DNA of 64,000 nucleotides. Origin: Winslowiella toletana (GTDB taxonomy: Bacteria > Pseudomonadota > Gammaproteobacteria > Enterobacterales > Enterobacteriaceae). The stretch covers positions 3,410,001 to 3,474,000 of the forward strand of contig NZ_CP134152.1 of NCBI RefSeq assembly GCF_032164335.1. Reading direction: 5' to 3'. Under the pieces are notes generated by a model. That model was given only the letters and a program-made list of their open reading frames with translations, had not been told where the DNA came from and made no database searches. The translations under genes and the position numbers were made by a program. This document shows positions 21,949 to 56,044 of this stretch, in pieces. Position 1 is the stretch's first letter. Each line of letters begins with the position of its first letter.

Positions 21949-22634
21949 TTCACCGCCTCAGGCAACAGGGTTGTCAGCAACTGATCCAGCCAATGGCTGA
22001 GGCCCCACCACAATGCGGCAAGGATAAGTATGCTCAGGCCAATTCGCACAGGCCAACTGGAAAGCCAACCACTCATCCCACGTCCGGCGCGGCTCTCGGC
22101 CAGTATCGGATGGCTCTGTGGAAAACTGAATGGCGCAACCTGCTCACTCAGCGCGGCGACCAGTTTTTGCCGTTGCGGATCGTGTATTGAGCGAAAGCTG
22201 CCGAGGAAGCCCAGCATCATCACTCGCTGGAAGCAGGTCAGCACTGTCTCGTCCGGTGAGGATTCGCGCAGAACGTCACGCATACGGTCACACAGGGTAT
22301 CGCCCGCTTCCATAGTGCCGAGAAAATGCCCCTGCAGAGGGATGTCATACCACTGCACGCAGGCATCATCCTGTACACCCCGACTTTTTACCGCCTCATC
22401 CAATAGCGCACATTGAGCGGTGAGGATATGCTGGCAGCTCGCTTCATCCACACCAGCGTCTTTGAGAGCCTGCTGCACGCGCTCCACGTCCGCCACGCAG
22501 CGATCCCACAGCATCCGGCCTTCACCATCTTTGAACTCCGGACCATGACGCAGGCTGATTACCTGCAACCAGGTATCCTGCAACAGCGCATCGATATTGC
22601 AGGACGCGGCTATCCCGCGTTTGTTGTCACTCAT
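21945..22634 (-). CDS. tssL: TssL (DotU/IcmH family) T6SS membrane protein
   Basis: 229 aa with a cytosolic helical domain and a single C-terminal transmembrane helix near residues 194-215 (VRIGLSILILAALWWGLSHWL). The motifs ALLDEAV and HFLGTMEAGDTLCDRM match the DotU family, where the cytosolic domain contacts TssK/TssE and the helix dimerises in the inner membrane. It lacks its own peptidoglycan-binding domain, which here is supplied by the separate downstream OmpA-domain protein. Start and stop overlap both neighbours by four bases. Confidence 0.93.
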   Translation of the reverse strand: MSDNKRGIAASCNIDALLQDTWLQVISLRHGPEFKDGEGRMLWDRCVADVERVQQALKDAGVDEASCQHILTAQCALLDEAVKSRGVQDDACVQWYDIPLQGHFLGTMEAGDTLCDRMRDVLRESSPDETVLTCFQRVMMLGFLGSFRSIHDPQRQKLVAALSEQVAPFSFPQSHPILAESRAGRGMSGWLSSWPVRIGLSILILAALWWGLSHWLDQLLTTLLPEAVK

Positions 22635-23971
22635 GTTCTCAGTACCGCATAGAGTTCAAGATCAGGCTCGCCGAGCGTACCTGGGGTATAGAACATACAG
22701 CTGCCGCTCTCCAGCATCTCCCGTGCTGCCGGATGGGACAGATCGAGGGAGAAATACTGATTTTCCAGACGCAGTGGAATCGCGGCCGGCACATGACGCA
22801 GAGGATTCAGTGGAATTCCCTGACGAGAGGCATTCACCAGACTGGTGACGTAATCCGGACTGCCCACCTTGCACTGGCGCGCGAACTGCTCCTGCAGCTG
22901 CGCCGCCGGAAGTGGAGAGCGAACAGACAGATAATAATCAGCGCCTTCGCGCAGTCGTGGATCCTGCAGACGTGCCAACCACTGGCGCAGTCGTTTGTCA
23001 TGAGTAAGCTCAATAGCTACTACTCGCGAAGGCAGGCTGGCTTCCAGCAGGTCACTCAGCAAGTCAAACAGCGGCGGGAATACCGTATTCAGTTGCTCGT
23101 GTTGCCAGACAGGGATGGCGCTGACCTGATGCTCCAGCGAAAAAGTCAGCAGACTACCCGCCAAACGTGCCAGTTCCGGATACAGACGCTCCGGTGCGCT
23201 CTGAGGAAAACGCTGAAACTGCCCCAATACCGGCTCAGCACTATTCAGGGCATTCAGCAACCAGAACAACGAGACATCAGCTACGGCAAAATCCGCCATT
23301 CGTTCATTGCTTTCACGGCGCATCGCCATCAGACGCGTTAAACGGGCGCGGAGCTGACTCATCAGTTGTTCCAGCTGAATCATCAGCCAGCTGCTGCTCT
23401 GTATCGTCAGTAACGGCGGCAGAAAAGCCTCATCAAGCGTCCAGAGCCCCTGAGAATCCTGCTGCAGGCGCGCCACCGGACAGGTCAGATAGTCGCTGTT
23501 ATTCTGATGGGCAAAACGCAGGGTCAGCTCTGGCTGCATTACGGCAATCTGGCGGGTATCGTCACCAAACTGGTTACGAACATCATGCCAGCGTTGGCGA
23601 TAGCGCACAGGCCGCTCTGCCACCTCATCAGGCTTCAGACAGTTGCCACCATTGGCGCGCAGCAGCGGCAGTGCCAATACCACCACGGTTTCATGTGACT
23701 CACCGTCAAGAGACAGCACTGGCGGCAACGCATCAGCATTGCCGGTATCGACAAGCGTTCCGTCCTGAAAACGAACGTGCAGATGACGAGCCTGCAAGCG
23801 ACCGAGCTTAAGTGCCGCCGGCTCAAATAGGGCCTCAATAATTCCCCAGGGATGGCTGAGGCCCATTCGTGCAATACACTCTGCTGACCAGGCCGCGTAT
23901 GCGGCCTGTTGCTGGAAATGTTGGGGCGAGACCATGATCCCCCTGCCCCATAACGGTTGTTCCGTTTTCAC
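22631..23971 (-). CDS. tssK: TssK baseplate protein
   Basis: 446 aa, the normal length. Opens with the family signature PLWGRGIMVSPQHFQQQ and continues with PWGIIEALFEPAALKLGRL. TssK trimers connect the baseplate (TssEFG) to the TssJLM membrane complex. Located between tssC and tssL as in many enterobacterial clusters, overlapping tssL by four bases. Confidence 0.95.
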   Translation of the reverse strand: MKTEQPLWGRGIMVSPQHFQQQAAYAAWSAECIARMGLSHPWGIIEALFEPAALKLGRLQARHLHVRFQDGTLVDTGNADALPPVLSLDGESHETVVVLALPLLRANGGNCLKPDEVAERPVRYRQRWHDVRNQFGDDTRQIAVMQPELTLRFAHQNNSDYLTCPVARLQQDSQGLWTLDEAFLPPLLTIQSSSWLMIQLEQLMSQLRARLTRLMAMRRESNERMADFAVADVSLFWLLNALNSAEPVLGQFQRFPQSAPERLYPELARLAGSLLTFSLEHQVSAIPVWQHEQLNTVFPPLFDLLSDLLEASLPSRVVAIELTHDKRLRQWLARLQDPRLREGADYYLSVRSPLPAAQLQEQFARQCKVGSPDYVTSLVNASRQGIPLNPLRHVPAAIPLRLENQYFSLDLSHPAAREMLESGSCMFYTPGTLGEPDLELYAVLRT

Positions 23972-23983
23972 AGATTACCCGCC

Positions 23984-25525
23984 TTACGATTTAGCTTTAG
24001 GCATCTGGGAAACCAGTGACAGATTCACGTCCATTCCTTCCACCTGGAAGTGCGGCACCGCGTACAGCTTCACGCGGAAGAAACCAGGATTATCCTCGAT
24101 ATCTTCCACCACCACTTTTGCATCACGCAGTGGGTGTGAGGCCTGCAGTTCATCGCCCGGATCGGTCATTTCAGTAACCAGCCCACGAATCCAGGTATTG
24201 AGTTCCAGTTCCAGCAGGCGACGATCCTTGGTGGTGCCGATATTTTCACGCTGAATCAGCTTCAGGTAGTGAGCAATACGCGACAGCAGGAAGATATACG
24301 GCAGGCGTGCATTGATGCGGCTGTTGGCGGTCGCATCAGCGGTGTCGTACAGCGCCGGTTTCTGCGTGGAGTTGGCCGAAAAGAAGCAGGCGTAATCACG
24401 GTTTTTGTAATACGACAGCGGAATAAAACCGAGGTTGGCGAATTCAAACTCGCGGGTTTCCGGGATCATCACCTCTGACGGGATTTTCACCTGATTACCG
24501 GTGCCCAGGTCGTAAAGATGGATTGGCAGATCCTGCACCGCACCACCGGCCTGCGGGCCGCGAATTTGTACGCACCAGCCGTTGTTAATAAAGCTGCGCA
24601 CCATATTGGCGGCAAAGGCAAAAGAGGCGTTGGTCCACAGATATTTACCGTGATCCGGGCCTTTCACCTCTTCCACGTAGTTAAAACTGCGCACCGGAAC
24701 GGTATCCGGGCCGTACGGCAGGCGGCCAAGCACGCGCGGCATCACCAGACCGATGTAGCGGGAGTCGTCGGTTTCGCGGAAAGATTTCCATTTGATATAT
24801 TCGGCACGGTCAAAGTAGTTACCGATATCTTTAATCGCAGCCACCTCTTCCATCGAGTCTTTCAGGAAGAATTTCGGGCCAGCGGAACCGATAAATGGCA
24901 TGTGTGCCGCTGCGGCAACTTTAGAGATATTACGCAGCAGCGCCACGTCCTGAGCAGACGCGTCAAACTCGTAACCGGAAATCAGTGCCCCAATTGGCTC
25001 ACCGCCCGGGGTGTCGTATTCAGCAATGTAGGTGTGGTTATACAGGCCACTCTGAATAATTTCCGGCGCATCTTCAAAATCCTGGCGCAGGTCATCTTTA
25101 GACAGGTCCAGCAATTCAATTTTTACGTTCTGACGGAAATCGGTTTTATCCACCAGCGATTTCACACCGCGCCACAGTGACTCAACGCGTTGGAATTCTT
25201 CGTGGTGCATGACCGCATCCAGCTGGCGGCTAATCTGAAAATCCAGCTCGGCGATGTGGTGGTCAATCAGCGTTTTGTCCAGCTTGTCGACCTTTGAACC
25301 GGCTTTACTCAGGCACTCCAGGAACACCTGCATACCGGCCGTCAGGCGCTCATCCGCCGAAGCATCAGACATAGCCTGAGCATCCTGCCAGATATCCAGG
25401 TCGCTTAGCTGCGCAACCGGGCTGAGATTAATTTTTTCAAACAGTGAAGCGTAAACGCCGCCCACAACCGGGCGATCCAGCACGATGGTTTCACCGGCAG
25501 AGGTGGTTTCATTTTGAACAGACAT
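23984..25525 (-). CDS. tssC: TssC sheath large subunit
   Basis: 513 aa from the second ATG (25525), which has GAGAG seven bases upstream; another ATG lies two codons earlier. Contains the conserved sheath motifs ALISGYEFDASAQDV, LLRNISKVAAAAHMPF, FRETDDSRYIGLVMPRVLGRLPYG and the C-terminal LREAKVVVEDIEDNPG-like strand. With TssB it forms the contractile sheath around the Hcp tube. Thirty-nine bases separate it from tssB. Confidence 0.95.
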   Translation of the reverse strand: MSVQNETTSAGETIVLDRPVVGGVYASLFEKINLSPVAQLSDLDIWQDAQAMSDASADERLTAGMQVFLECLSKAGSKVDKLDKTLIDHHIAELDFQISRQLDAVMHHEEFQRVESLWRGVKSLVDKTDFRQNVKIELLDLSKDDLRQDFEDAPEIIQSGLYNHTYIAEYDTPGGEPIGALISGYEFDASAQDVALLRNISKVAAAAHMPFIGSAGPKFFLKDSMEEVAAIKDIGNYFDRAEYIKWKSFRETDDSRYIGLVMPRVLGRLPYGPDTVPVRSFNYVEEVKGPDHGKYLWTNASFAFAANMVRSFINNGWCVQIRGPQAGGAVQDLPIHLYDLGTGNQVKIPSEVMIPETREFEFANLGFIPLSYYKNRDYACFFSANSTQKPALYDTADATANSRINARLPYIFLLSRIAHYLKLIQRENIGTTKDRRLLELELNTWIRGLVTEMTDPGDELQASHPLRDAKVVVEDIEDNPGFFRVKLYAVPHFQVEGMDVNLSLVSQMPKAKS

Positions 25526-25564
25526 CAGCATTCTCTCGTATTAATCCGTTAATAACGTCAGCGA

Positions 25565-26062
25565 TCAGGCTTTTTCCGGCGCCAGTGCAGACAGTTCACG
25601 ACGTAATTCGTCACTCAGGGCAGGATTTTTCAGGATGGACTCAAGCTCTTTGCGGAAAGTGACGTTATCCAGCAGGTTTGATTTGAGGTCACGCAGCAGG
25701 TTGCGCATGGCGAGCATCGCTTTCAGCTGAGGGATCTGGCGGGCGACCTGCTCCGGCGTGAAATCTTTCATATCGCGGAAGGTCAGGCGGACGTTCTCAT
25801 CACTGCCGTCGCCGGCCAGCGTGTTTTCAACGGAGAGATTTACAGCAGGAGAAAATTCCGCCAGCACGCTGTCGAAATTATTTTTATTAACGTTGACCTT
25901 TTCGCGCTCGGACAGCACACGCTGCTCCTGGCCATTGCTGAAATCACCGGTCACCAGCAGTTTCAGCGGCAGTTCGGTCTTAAGCGCAGCGTTACCCGTA
26001 TGCAGGTCTAATTTAATATTAACACGCGCTTTCGGGATTTCATTCTGATAAGAATTGCTCAT
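25565..26062 (-). CDS. tssB: TssB sheath small subunit
   Basis: 165 aa from the ATG at 26062, which has a clear AGGA eight bases upstream and yields the usual TssB length; an open frame extends 58 codons further upstream but through promoter-like DNA. Family motifs: IPKARVNIKLDLHTGN, LPLKLLVTGDFSNGQE, and FRDMKDFTPEQVARQIPQLKAMLAMRNLLRDLK. First gene of the T6SS transcription unit, so sheath production leads the operon. Confidence 0.94.
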   Translation of the reverse strand: MSNSYQNEIPKARVNIKLDLHTGNAALKTELPLKLLVTGDFSNGQEQRVLSEREKVNVNKNNFDSVLAEFSPAVNLSVENTLAGDGSDENVRLTFRDMKDFTPEQVARQIPQLKAMLAMRNLLRDLKSNLLDNVTFRKELESILKNPALSDELRRELSALAPEKA

Positions 26063-26130
26063 ATTAATTCCTGTAATATTGCCCCGGAAAGCGAGAGTAA
26101 GCACACTTTCCATATGTGATTCCAGGCGAC

Positions 26131-26158
26131 TATATAGCAAAACTTTTACAGGTAGCAA
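26131..26158 (-). promoter_or_regulatory. Candidate sigma-70 promoter of the T6SS operon
   Basis: On the minus strand TTGCTA (26158-26153), a 16-bp spacer and TATATA (26136-26131) stand 69-96 bases upstream of the tssB ATG. This predicts a leader of about 60 nt. No other candidate of similar quality was seen closer to tssB; activator sites cannot be recognised by eye. Confidence 0.5.
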
Positions 26159-26650
26159 GTGAGCAATTTCGATCCTTGTTACTGATTTAACTAAGAATTT
26201 TCCAACAATTTGAGATAAGTTATTGATAAAAATCACTTAAGAATACCAGGATTTATCCGAAAGACAGGGAAAATTTATTGTGAAAGCTGTGATGTAATCG
26301 ATGGTTTTTTGAGCGAAATAATCACTCATATTTAACTATTAGTGGTTATGTAAGTTACAAATAATGACAACCGATGCTTGCGCTGCGATTGATTGCCGGG
26401 GAAATGGGGCTGGAGAGGGGCTAAGACGGTTATGGTAGCGTGACCGATTAACTTTACGTAATTATAATCTCTGCTCTGAGAAAATAATAAGTTTGATAAC
26501 GAATAAGATAACTCGCTATAACATTGATATTACAACCTGTGCGGCTAATTTGCGACTTCAGTCTCGCCGAAATTCACTTAGCGGGATATTAATGAGGTTT
26601 ATTAAATAACCGCATCGTACAAAATATCGTCATTGTTATTTATTTATTCT
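26159..26650. other. AT-rich intergenic region upstream of the T6SS operon
   Basis: About 490 bases without any credible reading frame on either strand. I looked for a sigma-54 GG/GC element facing tssB and did not find one. The region probably holds regulatory sites for tssB, but I cannot assign specific ones. Confidence 0.5.
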
Positions 26651-26651
26651 C

Positions 26652-26680
26652 TTGCTCAATCTGTAAAAACCGTATACGAT
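26652..26680 (+). promoter_or_regulatory. Promoter of the ArcZ-like small RNA
   Basis: TTGCTC at 26652-26657, a 17-bp spacer, and TACGAT at 26675-26680 give a good sigma-70 promoter whose expected start is near 26687, directly before the 5' stem-loop of the predicted RNA. Confidence 0.6.
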
Positions 26681-26686
26681 GTTTTA

Positions 26687-26781
26687 AAACCTATACCAAA
26701 GGATAGGTTCACCTACAAAAACGATTTCCCTGGTGTTGGCCAAAGTGGCAACCCCTTACCCACGGTAAGGGGCTTTTTTTT
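26687..26781 (+). ncRNA. ArcZ-like Hfq-type small RNA (predicted)
   Basis: A transcript of about 95 nt is predicted. It has a 5' stem-loop (AACCTAT 26688-26694 with ATAGGTT 26703-26709), then GATTTCCCTGGTGTTGGC at 26723-26740, then a small imperfect hairpin, then a textbook terminator (CCCCTTACC/GGTAAGGGG, 26752-26772, followed by eight T). The 18-nt block equals the 5' end of processed E. coli ArcZ, the seed that pairs with rpoS and other mRNAs; flanking bases and terminator sequence differ. Canonical arcZ lies beside arcB, not beside a T6SS operon, so this looks like a second, ArcZ-like RNA. It could regulate tssB or distant targets; targets are unknown. Confidence 0.75.
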
Positions 26782-27130: not shown

Positions 27131-27868
27131 TTAAATAATAAAATTATTATCCTTCTTGAATACATTTCCTTTCTGCTGAATGAAGCTCTCAGGAAGATAG
27201 CGATGATAGTTACGCCGTTCACAAAATTCGATAAAATCATCCGTATGCGTGACGTCGCATTTTTCATAGATTTTTCCAATCTGTTCATCAACCGCCGCAT
27301 AAGAGAGCTGCAAAACAGTGGCGATTTCCTTATTACTCATCCTTTGAAGCTTCAGAAACACAAACTCGCACTCTGGTTCGTTAAAAAACTCATCGGGTTT
27401 ATTAAGCAATAGGGAACTGGGTGCATTTATTTTTATATATTTGTTTAGGTTGAAATTTTCTATGCTTTTGGAATGCAGTACCACCCCAACACAATGCCCA
27501 CCATCGTCATAAAAAGGTAGTTTTCTGATGATGTACGGATGATTCAATTGTTGTAAATGTATTTCCAGCATAGTAATCGACTTATGATTCTGCACGACTA
27601 TTCTATCCTGATGCTGCCATTCATCAACAATATACTGACTCTCTGTCAGCCTTGACTCCAACTCACTCTCCTGTTTTGTAAGCATATAGTCGGGCGAACT
27701 TAATCCCACTAATTTCGCAATCGCTCTATTAGCATAGATATAACGAGAGTTTATATCCTTTATTGCATATGGTTCATGCATCTGATCGAGTGTATTTGTA
27801 AGCATTTTAGGTAAGGACATATGATTTGAGATTGATTTTTTCTTCTCGGAAAATGCATCACTAGACAT
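27131..27868 (-). CDS. PAS-LuxR-type transcriptional regulator (copy B)
   Basis: 245 aa from the ATG at 27868 (AAAGGA seven bases upstream); a 12-codon upstream extension is rejected. An N-terminal PAS-like domain (LDQMHEPYAIKDINSRYIYANRAIAKLVGL, about 25-60) is followed by HPYIIRKLPFYDDGGHCVGV and a C-terminal LuxR-type helix-turn-helix near residues 175-230 (LKLQRMSNKEIATVLQLSYAAVDEQIGKIYEK). No phosphoacceptor receiver domain is present. It is clearly paralogous to the gene 83 bp upstream. The ligand and targets are unknown. Its position beside the T6SS promoter region makes a local regulatory role possible. Low GC content compared with flanking core genes suggests acquisition. Confidence 0.75.
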   Translation of the reverse strand: MSSDAFSEKKKSISNHMSLPKMLTNTLDQMHEPYAIKDINSRYIYANRAIAKLVGLSSPDYMLTKQESELESRLTESQYIVDEWQHQDRIVVQNHKSITMLEIHLQQLNHPYIIRKLPFYDDGGHCVGVVLHSKSIENFNLNKYIKINAPSSLLLNKPDEFFNEPECEFVFLKLQRMSNKEIATVLQLSYAAVDEQIGKIYEKCDVTHTDDFIEFCERRNYHRYLPESFIQQKGNVFKKDNNFII

Positions 27869-27950
27869 AATAGTTCCTTTATATTTATCTATAATAATTT
27901 TCAATCTTAAGGCATGCCAATATTTTTAATTTCTCATAAATTAATTGAAG

Positions 27951-28685
27951 TTATAGCTGATTTAACTTCTTTTCAAAGGTTATTTTTTGCTGCAGAATAA
28001 ACTTTTTAGGCAGATATCGATTATAATCTCGCCTTTCGCAAAAATCACTAAAATCATCAAAGTGATTCACTCCTACCTTGTCGTACAAACACTTCAAACG
28101 ATTATCAATAGTCCTTGATGAAAGATGTAATCTATTTCCTACCTCTTTGCTAGTCATTCCTTGAAGTTTTAGGAATATAATTTCGCATTCTTTTTCAGTA
28201 AAAAAATCATCAGGTTTACTTAATAGTAAGGATCCAGGGGTATTACCTTTAACAAAATCTTTAAGAGTGAAAACCTCAAGGTTTCTGCAATATGTAATCA
28301 CTCCTACGCACTGATTATCATCATCATAAAAAGGTAATTTCCTAACAATATAAGGAAAATCAACAGCCTTAGGATGAATTTCAAGCAAAATTAATGCCTT
28401 TCTGCTTTGCGATATCTTTTTATCCTGCGCTTGCCATTCTGAAACAATAACCTCATTTTCCGTAAGGCGAGAATGAAAATCATTTTCTCGCTTGTAAAGC
28501 ATCTCATCGGGTGAGCGAAGACCAGTAAGTTTCGCAGTTGCAAAATTGGCATAAATGAATCTTGAATCAAGATCCTTTATAAAATAAGGCTCTTGAAATT
28601 GATCAAGAGTACGTATTAACATTCCAGGTAATATTAATTGTGAAGCCTTTCTGTTTAACTGATTCTTTTCTACGAGCTCAGTCAT
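27951..28685 (-). CDS. PAS-LuxR-type transcriptional regulator (copy A)
   Basis: 244 aa from the ATG at 28685, preceded by a strong AAGGAG. Same plan as its downstream paralogue: PAS-like segment LDQFQEPYFIKDLDSRFIYANFATAKLTGL, then FPYIVRKLPFYDDDNQCVGV, then a helix-turn-helix LKLQGMTSKEVGNRLHLSSRTIDNRLKCLYDK, which fits the LuxR consensus better than that of copy B. Both end in an RRxYxRYLPxxFI-Q block. Likely a DNA-binding sensor of a small molecule or redox state. A single promoter upstream could transcribe both copies. Confidence 0.77.
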   Translation of the reverse strand: MTELVEKNQLNRKASQLILPGMLIRTLDQFQEPYFIKDLDSRFIYANFATAKLTGLRSPDEMLYKRENDFHSRLTENEVIVSEWQAQDKKISQSRKALILLEIHPKAVDFPYIVRKLPFYDDDNQCVGVITYCRNLEVFTLKDFVKGNTPGSLLLSKPDDFFTEKECEIIFLKLQGMTSKEVGNRLHLSSRTIDNRLKCLYDKVGVNHFDDFSDFCERRDYNRYLPKKFILQQKITFEKKLNQL

Positions 28686-28934
28686 ATTAACTCCTTGTAT
28701 AAAATACTCCATTAGAAGCCCACCATGGCTCCATACCAAACCTGTATCTAAGTACAGGCATTACGCTATCGTATACTTTTCGAACAGTCACCACAAGATA
28801 GCGCTTTATCCGTTGTTACACTGATTGGCTATCTGCAGGATGGCTGATTACTTAGGATGAAAATTATCAGGGGGGTTACGCTCGGGTAAATTGAGCGCTA
28901 CGCTTTTCGGCAAGCATCCCTGCTTGCCATTCAG

Positions 28935-29183
28935 CTACTGGGTATTTGCCCAGCGCGTGACACCAATATTGAACTTATGGGGTTGAGTGATGGCCTTTCT
29001 GGCAATCCAGTAAAGAATCACTTTATCATCATCACTGTCCCTGTCAGCCATCGACAATAACTTAAGCGATAGCGTGGATTTATTGACAGGTTGGTTTGCA
29101 TCACTCAGTTCAATTACAGCCTGACCGATTAAACAGCAGACCTCGTCCTCGTTTGATGCGGATTCATATGCTCGGTCTTTCAT
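28935..29183 (-). CDS. YmgB/AriR-family small regulator
   Basis: 82 aa, starting at an ATG with CAGGAGG six bases upstream. The central IGQAVIELSDANQPVNKSTLSLKLLS and KVILYWIARKAI resemble E. coli YmgB/AriR (GQAVTNL...VNNKNIILSLIHSL), small helical dimers linked to biofilm formation, acid resistance and connector signalling. The C-terminal NIGVTRWANTQ is not part of the E. coli protein as I recall it. A GGCAAGC/GCTTGCC hairpin follows at about 28909-28929. Family match is moderate. Confidence 0.65.
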   Translation of the reverse strand: MKDRAYESASNEDEVCCLIGQAVIELSDANQPVNKSTLSLKLLSMADRDSDDDKVILYWIARKAITQPHKFNIGVTRWANTQ

Positions 29184-29392
29184 ATAGCCTCCTGTTGTTG
29201 GGACTTTAAGCCTGGCAAAAAAATCGGTTACAGGTCGAAATAATCGGCACTGAGCAACATTTTGAAACGCTATTCAGAATTATCTGGCTGTTTCAGAAAC
29301 ATCAATAAACCCGGAAGATATTTAATTATTCCATCACTATTTGTTCCGCGTTTAACCGCTTATCTTCCTGATTAACATCACGGGAGGCCATT

Positions 29393-29551
29393 ATGCACTC
29401 TACAACTGCTTTTTTAAAACAGCTCGAGCGCCTCTGGCGCAATGAACCCCAGCGCAGAAAAATGCCGGGTATTTTCTATCTGACGCCAGAACAACGCATC
29501 GCCATCGTTAAAGATCTGCTGTATCCGCTTAATGACAGACCGTCGCGATAA
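29393..29551 (+). CDS. 52-aa basic small protein, unknown
   Basis: ATG at 29393 with GGGAGG six bases upstream and a good terminator 19 bases after the stop, so it has the parts of a real one-gene unit. The product is basic and helical-looking (FLKQLERLWRNEPQRRKMPGIF, then LTPEQRIAIVKDLLYPLNDRPSR), with no signal peptide or membrane segment. I do not recognise the family. It lies in the 670-bp gap between the AriR-like gene and yhjX, which otherwise holds only regulatory sequence. Confidence 0.6.
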   Translation: MHSTTAFLKQLERLWRNEPQRRKMPGIFYLTPEQRIAIVKDLLYPLNDRPSR

Positions 29552-29569
29552 TCGCTGACGGTTTTCTCA

Positions 29570-29610
29570 GGCTGAGTAACCGGATAGCAAGTTACTCAGC
29601 CGTTGTTTTT
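29570..29610 (+). terminator. Rho-independent terminator after the small ORF
   Basis: GGCTGAGTAAC (29570-29580) pairs perfectly with GTTACTCAGCC (29591-29601) and is followed by GTTGTTTTT. Confidence 0.75.
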
Positions 29611-29751
29611 CCGCTGAAAAGGTAAGCAGAATGCTGCTTCAGCGCAAAAACCGTTTACATTAAATTTCCGTACCGATAACCTATTTAACGCCTTCCCCGC
29701 CCACTTCTAAGGGCAGAAAAGCGTAATCAATGCCGTTTATGCTGTTTTCAA

Positions 29752-29782
29752 TGCATTTCATTCCGCGCCTGCGTCAGTTCAT
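29752..29782 (+). promoter_or_regulatory. YpdB (PyrR)-type operator upstream of yhjX
   Basis: TGCATTTCAT (29752-29761), exactly 11 bases, then GTCAGTTCAT (29773-29782). E. coli YpdB binds two tandem GGCATTTCAT boxes 11 bp apart in the yhjX promoter; these match 9/10 and 8/10 with the same spacing. They lie about 75-105 bp before the yhjX ATG, as expected for activation. Confidence 0.75.
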
Positions 29783-29857
29783 GCCGGATTCCCCCGTTCC
29801 CCGCTGCGGCAACTTACTATTACTGTAATTTCAGCATTCCCCACCGGGAGAATACCT

Positions 29858-31093
29858 ATGAGTACGCAGACGGCAGTGAATCCCAATAATCGCACGCGCT
29901 GGCTTACCTTGTTTGGCACCATTATTACTCAGTTTGCGCTGGGTTCGGTATATACCTGGAGCCTGTTTAACAGTCAGCTTTCCCAAAAGCTGGACGCCCC
30001 CATCAGTCAGGTCGCCTTCTCTTTCGGTCTGCTTAGCCTCGGGCTGGCGCTTGCCTCTTCGGTTGCCGGCAAATTGCAGGAACGCTTTGGCGTGCGTAAC
30101 GTCACTATCGGTGCCGGTTTGCTGATGGCGGTCGGCTTCTTCCTTACCGCTCATGCCAACAGCCTGTTTATGTTATACCTCAGTGCAGGCCTGCTGGTCG
30201 GCCTGGCGGACGGTGCTGGTTATCTGATTACCCTATCCAATTGTGTAAAATGGTTCCCGGAGCGCAAAGGGCTGATCTCTGCCTGCGCAATCGGTGCCTA
30301 CGGCTTAGGCAGCCTGGGGTTCAAATTTATCTGTAGTTATCTGTTAAGCGTAAATAGCCTGGAAACCACCTTTATTATCTGGGGCGGCATGGCGATGGTG
30401 ATGATTATTACCGGTGCATTACTGATGAAAGATGCGCCAAAACAGCAGCCGAATACCACCACCAGCAGCGGAGAGAGCGTGCGTGATTTCTCGCTGGCTG
30501 AATCCATGCGTCTGCCGCAATACTGGCTGCTGGCTTTAATGTTTCTGACTGCCTGTATGAGTGGCCTGTATGTTATCGGCGTGGCAAAAGACATTGGCGA
30601 AGGGCTGGTGAATCTCAGTACGCAAACTGCGGCCAATGCGGTCACGATTATCGCCATCGCCAACCTCAGCGGACGCCTGATTCTTGGGGTATTGTCGGAT
30701 AAGATTGCGCGTATCCGGGTCATTACGCTGGCACAGGTGGTTTCTCTGGTCGGCATGAGCATTCTGCTGTTTACCAGTATGAATCAAACCACCTTCTTTA
30801 TTTCTATTGCCTGTGTGGCCTTTAGTTTTGGCGGCACCATTACCGTTTATCCGTCGCTGGTGAGTGACTTCTTTGGCCTGAATAACCTGACGAAAAACTA
30901 CGGTGTACTTTATCTCGGCTTTGGTATCGGCAGCGTGATGGGCTCACTGATTGCTTCATTGTTTGGCGGCTTCACCGTGACCTTTAGCCTGATTATGACG
31001 CTGTTGGTGATTTCGCTGATTATCTCCACCACCATTCGCCTGCCGCATCAGCCGGCGAAAGTAAAAACGGCTTATCAACAAAGTAAAGCCTGA
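29858..31093 (+). CDS. yhjX: YhjX MFS transporter (pyruvate-responsive, OFA family)
   Basis: 411 aa, about 12 transmembrane helices, and closely similar in reading to E. coli YhjX: RTRWLTLFGTIITQFALGSVYTWSLFN at the N-terminus, KLDAPISQVAFSFGLLSLGLA, and LSNCVKWFPERKGLISA. It belongs to the oxalate/formate antiporter family. In E. coli it is induced by the YpdAB pyruvate-sensing system and has been linked to pyruvate transport. Start chosen at the ATG with GGGAG eight bases upstream. The YpdB-type tandem operator in front of the gene and the ypdAB genes 11 kb away in this window suggest the same control here. Confidence 0.93.
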   Translation: MSTQTAVNPNNRTRWLTLFGTIITQFALGSVYTWSLFNSQLSQKLDAPISQVAFSFGLLSLGLALASSVAGKLQERFGVRNVTIGAGLLMAVGFFLTAHANSLFMLYLSAGLLVGLADGAGYLITLSNCVKWFPERKGLISACAIGAYGLGSLGFKFICSYLLSVNSLETTFIIWGGMAMVMIITGALLMKDAPKQQPNTTTSSGESVRDFSLAESMRLPQYWLLALMFLTACMSGLYVIGVAKDIGEGLVNLSTQTAANAVTIIAIANLSGRLILGVLSDKIARIRVITLAQVVSLVGMSILLFTSMNQTTFFISIACVAFSFGGTITVYPSLVSDFFGLNNLTKNYGVLYLGFGIGSVMGSLIASLFGGFTVTFSLIMTLLVISLIISTTIRLPHQPAKVKTAYQQSKA

Positions 31094-31098
31094 TTCAA

Positions 31099-31125
31099 CG
31101 GGCCGGAGAATCTCCGGCCCGTGCT
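31099..31125. terminator. Terminator between convergent yhjX and SMP-30 genes
   Basis: CGGGCCGGAG (31099-31108) and its complement (31112-31121) form a 10-bp GC-rich stem followed by TGCTTTT; the hairpin can serve both converging transcripts. Confidence 0.7.
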
Positions 31126-31126
31126 T

Positions 31127-32017
31127 TTAACGCTGATGATAACGAAACAGCGGTTCAACCATTCCAGCTACCTCTACCCGCACGGCGAACACATTGCCGG
31201 AAAGTGGATAACGCTCCAGCTCTTCTTCGGTACGATCCTCACGAGAACTGGTGATATACAGGGTTTTCAAATCTTCCCCGCCAAAAGCCACCATTGTCGG
31301 CCAACGTACCGGCAATATGATTTCATCAACAATTTCAGCGCTTTCAGGATGAATTCGCACCACGCGTCCCCCATCAAACATTGCCGACCAGTAGTAGCCT
31401 TCGCTGTCGATTGCCGCGCCATCCGGTAAACCACCCTGCTGAGAGTCAAAGCGTTTAAACGCCTTACGCGCGCCCACTTCACCGCTGGTTGGGTCAACGG
31501 GATAGCGCCAGAGCACCTCATTCGGCGTATCGCTGTGATACATCCAGCGGCGGTCTGGTGAGAAAGCCAGCCCGTTGGAAATTTTCACATCGTCATTCAC
31601 GACCGTCAGGTTGAGCTGAGAATCCAGGCAGCATAACTTGCCGCCGTTGCGATCCTGCGGCTCCCACAGGCTGCCACACCAGAAGCGCCCAAAGGGATCA
31701 ACCCGGCCGTCGTTAAAGCGGCTTTTGCTGGCCTCGCCTGGGTTATCGGCAATTTTCCGTTCGATTTTTCCCTGCTCATCGAGGAACCATACGCCGCTAC
31801 GCAGCGCAGCGACGATACCGCCACCGGCACGCAGACCGATGCAGCCCACCTCTTCAGTCAGTGGAAAGCTTTGGCACTCACCACTTTGCGGATGAAAACG
31901 ATGAATCGCCGGTGCCAGAATATCCACCAACCACAGCACCTGATGTTCCGGCGACCATAGCGGACACTCCCCCAGTTCAGCCTGCAACGGCAGCACACAT
32001 TCAACCTGATAAGCCAT
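31127..32017 (-). CDS. SMP-30/gluconolactonase/LRE family protein
   Basis: 296 aa from the ATG at 32017 (MAYQVECVL), which has AAGAGGG upstream; nine extra codons further upstream are rejected. Six-bladed beta-propeller motifs are visible: LGECPLWSP with the metal-binding Glu, SRFNDGRVDPFGRFWCGS, ISNGLAFSPDRRWMYHSDT and LPDGAAIDSEGYYWSAMFDGG, with the expected Asn/Asp metal ligands. Such enzymes hydrolyse sugar lactones (gluconolactone, arabinolactone and others); the substrate cannot be told from sequence. It stands alone, convergent with yhjX, and a Fur-box-like site lies 60 bp upstream of its start. Confidence 0.88.
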   Translation of the reverse strand: MAYQVECVLPLQAELGECPLWSPEHQVLWLVDILAPAIHRFHPQSGECQSFPLTEEVGCIGLRAGGGIVAALRSGVWFLDEQGKIERKIADNPGEASKSRFNDGRVDPFGRFWCGSLWEPQDRNGGKLCCLDSQLNLTVVNDDVKISNGLAFSPDRRWMYHSDTPNEVLWRYPVDPTSGEVGARKAFKRFDSQQGGLPDGAAIDSEGYYWSAMFDGGRVVRIHPESAEIVDEIILPVRWPTMVAFGGEDLKTLYITSSREDRTEEELERYPLSGNVFAVRVEVAGMVEPLFRYHQR

Positions 32018-32076
32018 CTTTCCCTCTTTATGTCCTGATTCCACAATGGTGCCACTTATTGTAGCTGGATTTCAGA

Positions 32077-52046: not shown

Positions 52047-52122
<76 letters not shown>

Positions 52123-52167
52123 ACTACAGAGATGCGTTTTTCAGTTCCAAATCTGCTGGAGTAGATT

Positions 52168-52243
<76 letters not shown>

Positions 52244-55653: not shown

Positions 55654-55729
55654 GGGTGATTAGCTCAGTTGGTAGAGCATCTCCTTTACACGGAGGGGGT
55701 CGGCGGTTCGAGCCCGTCATCACCCACCA
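55654..55729 (+). tRNA. valU: tRNA-Val(TAC)
   Basis: 76 nt with encoded CCA; anticodon loop CTTTACACG gives anticodon TAC (UAC). First of three near-identical copies. Confidence 0.95.
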
Positions 55730-55770
55730 TCTCTAAGATGGCCGCAGTGGTAGCAAGAGAGTTGAGACAT

Positions 55771-55846
55771 GGGCGATTAGCTCAGTTGGTAGAGCATCTC
55801 CTTTACACGGAGGGGGTCGGCGGTTCGAGCCCGTCATCGCCCACCA
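55771..55846 (+). tRNA. valX: tRNA-Val(TAC)
   Basis: Second copy, 41 bp after the first; differs at one acceptor-stem pair (GGGCGAT against GGGTGAT, compensated at the 3' side). Confidence 0.95.
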
Positions 55847-55888
55847 TGACTCAACACACATAAGTGTCTTGCTAAGCAGTAACGAAAT

Positions 55889-55964
55889 GGGTGATTAGCT
55901 CAGTTGGTAGAGCATCTCCTTTACACGGAGGGGGTCGGCGGTTCGAGCCCGTCATCACCCACCA
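55889..55964 (+). tRNA. valY: tRNA-Val(TAC)
   Basis: Third copy, identical to the first; only four bases separate it from the tRNA-Lys gene. Confidence 0.95.
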
Positions 55965-55968
55965 TTTC

Positions 55969-56044
55969 GGGTCGTTAGCTCAGTTGGTAGAGCAGTTGAC
56001 TTTTAATCAATTGGTCGCAGGTTCGAATCCTGCACGACCCACCA
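55969..56044 (+). tRNA. lysV: tRNA-Lys(TTT)
   Basis: 76 nt with CCA; anticodon loop ACTTTTAAT gives TTT (UUU). Closes the conserved val-val-val-lys operon found beside gltX in E. coli. Confidence 0.95.

Follow-up and report, generated by a model that had tools for sequence, protein, structure and literature searches.

A putative free-standing small RNA gene carrying the ArcZ seed in Winslowiella toletana, with probable kin dispersed across the family

Introduction

ArcZ has usually been studied as a single gene per species, and a word search of the available main text of the 2024 ArcZ review (PMC11331407) finds none of the terms 'paralog', 'duplicat' or 'second copy'. The 64,000-nt stretch of W. 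toletana DNA considered here (the window; the genome is designated G000) carries a copy of the ArcZ seed near a type VI secretion (T6SS) operon. The questions raised by this locus are whether it is a small RNA gene in its own right or simply arcZ in a new place, where it came from, and what it might regulate. Among the literature matches listed, which were largely without subscription papers, there is no report of ArcZ-seed RNAs outside arcZ; PMC7311995 contains the 15-mer seed core.

The small RNA gene and its parts

The features of the locus are collected in Table 1. The ArcZ seed seen by the first-pass annotation is indeed exact and does not differ from the one in the genome's own arcZ. No other match to GATTTCCCTGGTGTTGGC occurs in the window at up to 3 mismatches; at this threshold, any match at all was obtained in 6 of 100 shuffles, with a mean of 0.06. 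The longest open reading frame overlapping it has 66 codons. The 5' stem-loop and strong terminator (U8 in the RNA) that had been described around it were also borne out, by the predicted fold and the terminator scan respectively. The "good" sigma-70 promoter stands in part: its boxes and their 17-nt spacing recur in four related loci, as TTGCTC or TTGCCC and TACGAT or TAGGAT, but it has only 7 of the 12 consensus bases and is absent from the listing of the promoter scan. On these grounds, an sRNA of about 96 nt is predicted to be transcribed here.

Table 1. Features of the ArcZ-seed locus and its neighbors, in window coordinates
Feature	Position	Strand	Basis or remarks
Putative sigma-70-type promoter, TTGCTC-17-TACGAT	26652-26680 (boxes 26652-26657, 26675-26680)	+	7/12 consensus bases
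sRNA gene, ~96 nt	26686-26781	+	Start inferred from -10 box; end is the terminator T8
5' hairpin, AACCTATACC-AAA-GGATAGGTT	26688-26709	+	Predicted fold
ArcZ seed GATTTCCCTGGTGTTGGC with RNase E-like site GA|UUU	26723-26740	+	Exact match
Small hairpin GCCA-AAG-TGGC, 5' end inside seed	26739-26749	+	Predicted fold
Intrinsic terminator, CCCCTTACC-CAC-GGTAAGGGG, C, T8; 9-bp stem	26752-26781	+	Terminator scan
T6SS genes tssB (25565-26062), tssC (23984-25531), tssK (22631-23971)	22631-26062	-	Pfam VipA, VipB, VasE
Two PAS regulators, convergent with the sRNA	27131-28739	-	GerE/LuxR domain in one (Pfam)
Conserved right flank: 82-aa protein, MFS transporter, SMP-30-like protein	28935-32044		Pfam

In the predicted folds UUUCCCU is mostly unpaired and, in G000, the GGUG that follows it in the seed is paired with the 5' arm. 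The pairing given to the 5' arm by a consensus fold of the four window-type RNAs alone was set aside. The equivalent of the small hairpin at 26739-26749 shows some compensatory changes among the luxI-linked relatives described below.

Comparison with canonical arcZ

The proposal of a second seed-sharing RNA away from arcB would fall if this were the genome's only arcZ, relocated. It is not: the canonical gene was located in the same 5.0-Mb genome at G000:C1:526021-526125, adjoining arcB (the latter read by eye), which rules out a relocated single arcZ and makes the window RNA a second ArcZ-seed RNA. Genome-wide, the 15-mer seed core has two matches at up to 1 mismatch, the window locus and canonical arcZ, with none for the reversed control. 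The former does not lie beside arcB; T6SS and PAS/LuxR-type genes adjoin it instead.

The two RNAs share their order of parts. As in ArcZ (RyhA/SraH, RF00081), the 18-nt seed is followed by a short hairpin and then by an intrinsic terminator, and CCCUGGUGUUGGC comes after an RN|WUU site in the same position, here as GA|UUUCCCUGGUGUUGGC at 26723-26740. RN|WUU is the RNase E consensus for ArcZ according to the available part of PMC11331407, where the conserved ArcZ stretch continues with GCA; the window RNA continues with CAA. The locus, promoter, 5' region, hairpin sequence and terminator sequence all differ. Canonical ArcZ is under ArcA control, bound by Hfq and processed by RNase E. That the rest of the RNA departs from ArcZ, as had been said at first sight, is evident from the Rfam covariance check, in which it reaches 12.9 bits (E 2.9) against RF00081, where the gathering cut-off is 66 -- a value that the genome's own canonical arcZ, at 65.2 bits, itself falls just under.

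Conservation and genomic neighborhood

By DNA search the locus is present in 4 of 60 genomes, W. toletana included (G000, G023, G019 and G031). A 39-nt block, reaching from -3 to +36 relative to the seed core, is fully conserved (100% identity) in every comparison of G000 with the other three genomes, and also between G019 and G031. The flanks of this block are 66% (upstream) and 71% (downstream) identical between G000 and G023, and 25% and 37-39% identical between G000 and G019/G031; in the predicted folds the 5' arm of the latter two forms a different hairpin from that of G000, so that the two species pairs differ. Such complete retention of the seed block between species with flanks at 25-39% identity argues against a decaying, functionless relic of a mobile module, whether prophage or quorum-sensing cassette; similar modules do occur on prophages and plasmids, and phage genes adjoin the window-type RNA in G019 and G031, but we consider a relic very unlikely.

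The 82-aa protein (for which Pfam gave no family) and the MFS transporter lie beside the sRNA in all three relatives, and the SMP-30-like protein in two of the three within the stretch fetched; the two PAS regulators are common to G000 and G023 only. On the left, G023 has genes that we take to be ccm and FNT. The left flanks of G019 and G031 hold phage genes, including a tail sheath, an endolysin and a repressor in G019 (PHROGs), those of G031 being assigned by likeness. With T6SS, phage or ccm/FNT genes at the same place (window 26062-26650; L062, L065, L066), this side of the sRNA resembles an insertion hotspot. Elsewhere in the window, tRNA gene clusters were seen at 55654-56041 and 52050-52243 (4 on the plus strand, 2 on the minus).

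The position of the sRNA in G000, divergent from tssB and 590 nt from its start at 26062, had been read as a link to T6SS control, and an RNA that regulates the adjacent operon is one possible explanation of the locus. T6SS genes adjoin the sRNA in this one species of the four, however, and none lies within the approximately 6 kb fetched on each side in the other three, while the pairing of the tssB leader with the seed was equalled by 29 of 300 shuffles and is thus not clearly above chance. Given both results, the T6SS link is not supported, and a T6SS-linked regulator appears highly improbable.

The ArcZ seed elsewhere in the family

Within the genus, canonical arcZ was found in all 34 genomes looked at (of 37), and non-canonical seeds with a terminator, of several types, in 22 of the 34. 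The commonest type in the genus is an Erwinia mini-sRNA, a very short gene whose seed leads almost directly into the terminator (TTGGCCCG..CGGGC, T7 or more), with a -10-like box just upstream; by reading, it is present in 17 of the 34 genomes (L015, L020, L021, L038-L040, L051, L053, L054 and others). From the position of the box we infer a primary transcript of about the length of processed ArcZ. The mini-sRNAs have no synteny with the window gene: of the 40 loci L038-L077, its seven neighbors match L062, L065 and L066 only.

A search of 392 genomes of the family with the pattern TTTCCCTGGTGTTGGCH, which does not admit arcZ's own GGCG continuation, gave 87 sites in 58 of them, with none for the reversed control among the matches listed. 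An intrinsic terminator lies within 95 nt at 73 of the 87, in 48 genomes, one of these (in G401) being an arcZ variant; the remaining 14 include coding matches, probable other-strand 3'-UTR matches and a few likely sRNAs missed by the script. A wider contig scan gave 53 sites with a terminator among at least 120 scanned; two of the 53 are Citrobacter arcZ variants, and one, in Acidobacteria, is taken as chance. When 20 of the satellite loci were run against Rfam, there were five matches, none at a seed site, and the Enterobacter-type RNA had no match in the E. coli genomes searched. The ArcZ seed is not private to ArcZ within the family; the early reading was right about a second RNA and missed the recurrence of the seed in many other sRNA genes.

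One genome, G385 (probably Arsenophonus, from its sequence), has 10 seed sites, nine of them short ArcZ-seed genes away from luxI (L354-L362), six of which sit on contigs 50-95 kb long. At L082, L085, L086 and L087, in four genomes from other genera, the seed complement lies on the other strand, 3' of what seems to be one shared ORF end, and is perhaps another 3'-UTR anti-seed.

Quorum-sensing, plasmid and phage contexts

Many of the family sites lie close to a quorum-sensing synthase gene. The luxI search (PF00765) took in 53 of the 58 genomes with the pattern and 6 others, 59 in all. Counting strong luxI matches and omitting weak, fragmentary ones, we find luxI within 3 kb of 36 of the 87 sites, spread over 34 genomes (sites in the five remaining pattern genomes, G376, G401, G258, G395 and G326, being counted as unlinked), as against approximately 0.1 expected by area (87 sites, each with a 6.5-kb target in 5 Mb). 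At 25 of the 36, luxI is 0.96-1.08 kb 3' of the seed on the opposite strand, at 10 it is 1.2-1.5 kb 5' on the same strand, and one differs; 35 have a terminator. The eight loci that were read have the sRNA, then a luxR-like ORF on the same strand (by eye), then a convergent luxI. In Edwardsiella, Serratia, Yersinia ruckeri, Edaphovirga and others, the ArcZ-seed RNAs found upstream of luxR resemble the window RNA in their 3' half, with the seed, a GCCA..TGGC-type hairpin and a terminator, and a single covariance model recovers both. Unlike them, the window copy has no luxI/luxR pair adjoining it, the sRNA being at 3436725 and luxI at G000:C1:2530627, about 0.9 Mb apart.

The same arrangement occurs on plasmids. 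Y. hibernica p2_50K, where it is between IS91 genes, and the conjugative S. marcescens plasmid pSERAS01 each have an exact seed and terminator just before annotated LuxR and AHL synthase genes, with no annotated feature at the position of the seed RNA. Plasmid pEB170 of E. billingiae has the seed module too; for the stretch shown, its (incomplete) gene table lists neither luxI nor luxR. IMG/VR has 47 seed sites, 29 with a terminator; some of its short contigs resemble plain Erwinia DNA, and on five of the contigs with a terminator (L246, L232, L240, L236 and L254) an integrase, exonuclease, terminase, endolysin or primase was recognized (PHROGs). No match to phage records was obtained by BLAST with the window locus or with two phage-borne loci.

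One member of the set appears to have been detected experimentally. For P. ananatis LMG 2665, the available part of PMC6749038 describes pPAR237 and pPAR238, two novel RNAs near eanIR that depend on Hfq and are abundant at low cell density but drastically reduced when density is high; in its main text, so far as available, 'similar to ArcZ', 'seed region', 'EsaS' and 'YenS' do not occur. Mapping of the published primers, 2 of 8 of which do not match exactly, assigns pPAR237 to the strand that carries the seed and pPAR238 to its complement. Like the window RNA, pPAR237, which is reported (PMC6749038, as above) to be Hfq-dependent, has the ArcZ seed and a terminator; unlike it, pPAR237 lies beside eanIR and has another 5' hairpin. 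At least one RNA of the set is therefore made and Hfq-dependent, if the primer mapping is right. The window RNA would probably bind Hfq as well.

Origin of the RNA

Covariance model R1 was built from 27 luxI-linked modules of genera other than that of the window (alignment A1, 27 of 30 distinct modules; two of those omitted are the same as an included one but for T-run length, and one is a near-duplicate). The window RNA is its top match in both the window and the genome, at 54.7 bits (E 2.4e-10 and 1.9e-8, respectively), part of which is not independent, as R1 shares the 16-nt seed by construction; the genome's own arcZ scores lower, 36.7 bits. Because the seed is common by construction, the non-seed part was scored separately. 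Against 54 modules its best score was 12.0, compared with a maximum of 9.0 in 1000 shuffles, which kept base composition only, so that hairpin likeness may contribute to the 12.0; against the genome's arcZ it was 6.0, a value reached or exceeded in 10 of 1000 shuffles. In the non-seed alignment, the best rows of satellite modules (the window's own type aside) score 23 to 12, and the 12 canonical modules listed 5.5-9.

The R1 scores, together with a non-seed score above all shuffles, make it more likely that the window RNA derives from the dispersed satellite set, perhaps via a mobile element, than that it is a simple arcZ copy. A true paralogue, that is, a direct arcZ duplicate that has diverged outside the seed, would account for the same 18-nt seed and the same seed-hairpin-terminator order as in the genome's own arcZ; with the non-seed part closer to the best satellites than to the canonical modules, and with R1 favoring the window RNA over arcZ, we think this unlikely.

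Proposed function and targets

The most likely reading of the locus, and one in which we have reasonable confidence, is that it encodes a free-standing sRNA of about 96 nt, probably Hfq-binding, that carries the ArcZ seed under its own promoter, would regulate some or all ArcZ targets, and is kin to the dispersed set. The RNA would bind Hfq through its U-tail with the seed exposed and pair with ArcZ targets; RNase E could cleave at GA|UUU, which would free the GGUG from the 5' arm. Since the seed is the same as in processed ArcZ, some or all of the ArcZ targets, among them the rpoS leader and RBS-type targets, should be regulated. The new element would be a promoter separate from the arcZ promoter beside arcB.

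The first-pass annotation had suggested an overlap with the ArcZ regulon, and for rpoS this finds support, at the level of predicted pairing. The rpoS leaders of the four species have GGGGAAATCC approximately 100 nt before the start, with 9 pairs to GAUUUCCCU that are equal for ArcZ and the window RNA, and they hold the short conserved motif GGGAAATC, which could pair with the shared seed. This motif was used in place of RNAduplex predictions on the leaders, which gave long scattered pairings and were distrusted. At up to 3 mismatches there are 65 seed-complement sites in the four genomes. Five are exact seed genes, leaving 60, of which four (two with 1 mismatch and two with 3) immediately precede a start codon; none of the 12 in W. 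toletana itself does.

In G031 and G019 (L279, L281; G031:C42:9537 and G019:C1:1684991), a 1-mismatch anti-seed, ACCAACACCAGGGAAATC, ends just before an ATG. The gene that follows encodes a 339-aa, probably secreted protein in both species and is a strong candidate target of the ArcZ seed; the site was not among the matches in G000 or G023.

Complementary sequences near luxR

A further alternative is that the functional RNA comes from the opposite strand and is an anti-seed decoy that titrates ArcZ. Anti-seeds do occur near luxR in relatives (pPAR238, YenS at L188, and the luxR region of the four species), and the minus strand of the window has a weak terminator-like site at 26745-26728, but it is the plus strand that has the strong terminator and the recurring promoter boxes, and a decoy here is highly improbable.

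In all four species the luxI/luxR locus (G000:C1:2532860-2532877, L290 and L343; L317, L340, L341) has the anti-ArcZ-seed CACCAGGGAAA, on the strand read as divergent from luxR and within sequence that otherwise has partly diverged; it is a candidate ArcZ decoy, and L290 had no Rfam match. Another conserved anti-seed, GCCAACACCAGGGGA, is found 24-114 nt after a 276-aa ORF (L308, L285, L287; G000:C1:4026128 and relatives), followed by its own terminator-like hairpin, and is a possible 3'-UTR sponge for ArcZ. EsaS is a small RNA gene at a luxR locus. Its promoter is described in the available part of PMC13365800. YenS (RF02374; PMC3493969, available in part) is, like the luxI-linked relatives, a small RNA gene at a luxR locus; unlike the window RNA, in Yersinia aleksiciae (L188, 7696-7529, minus strand) it carries not the seed but its complement, GCCAATACCAGGGGA, with two G-U pairs. 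An ArcZ-seed gene with a terminator lies about 300 nt downstream of this YenS on the same strand (~7217-7160, minus). The strict anti-seed pattern was present at 1 of 6 Yersinia loci checked, and RF02374 had no match in the window at its gathering cut-off, with none listed for the sRNA locus up to E 10. The opposite strand at luxR loci, or YenS, may supply a matching anti-seed decoy.

Biological implications

If other RNAs share the ArcZ seed, the phenotypes of arcZ deletions may be masked or confounded in the hosts that carry them. The wider proposal, which we regard as evenly balanced, is that the ArcZ seed is a mobile regulatory word, carried by quorum-sensing cassettes, plasmids, prophages and free-standing genes, whose own promoters would place one regulon under several signals besides oxygen. 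Seed sharing of this kind would also give quorum sensing, and prophages as well, direct access through RNA to the ArcZ regulon.
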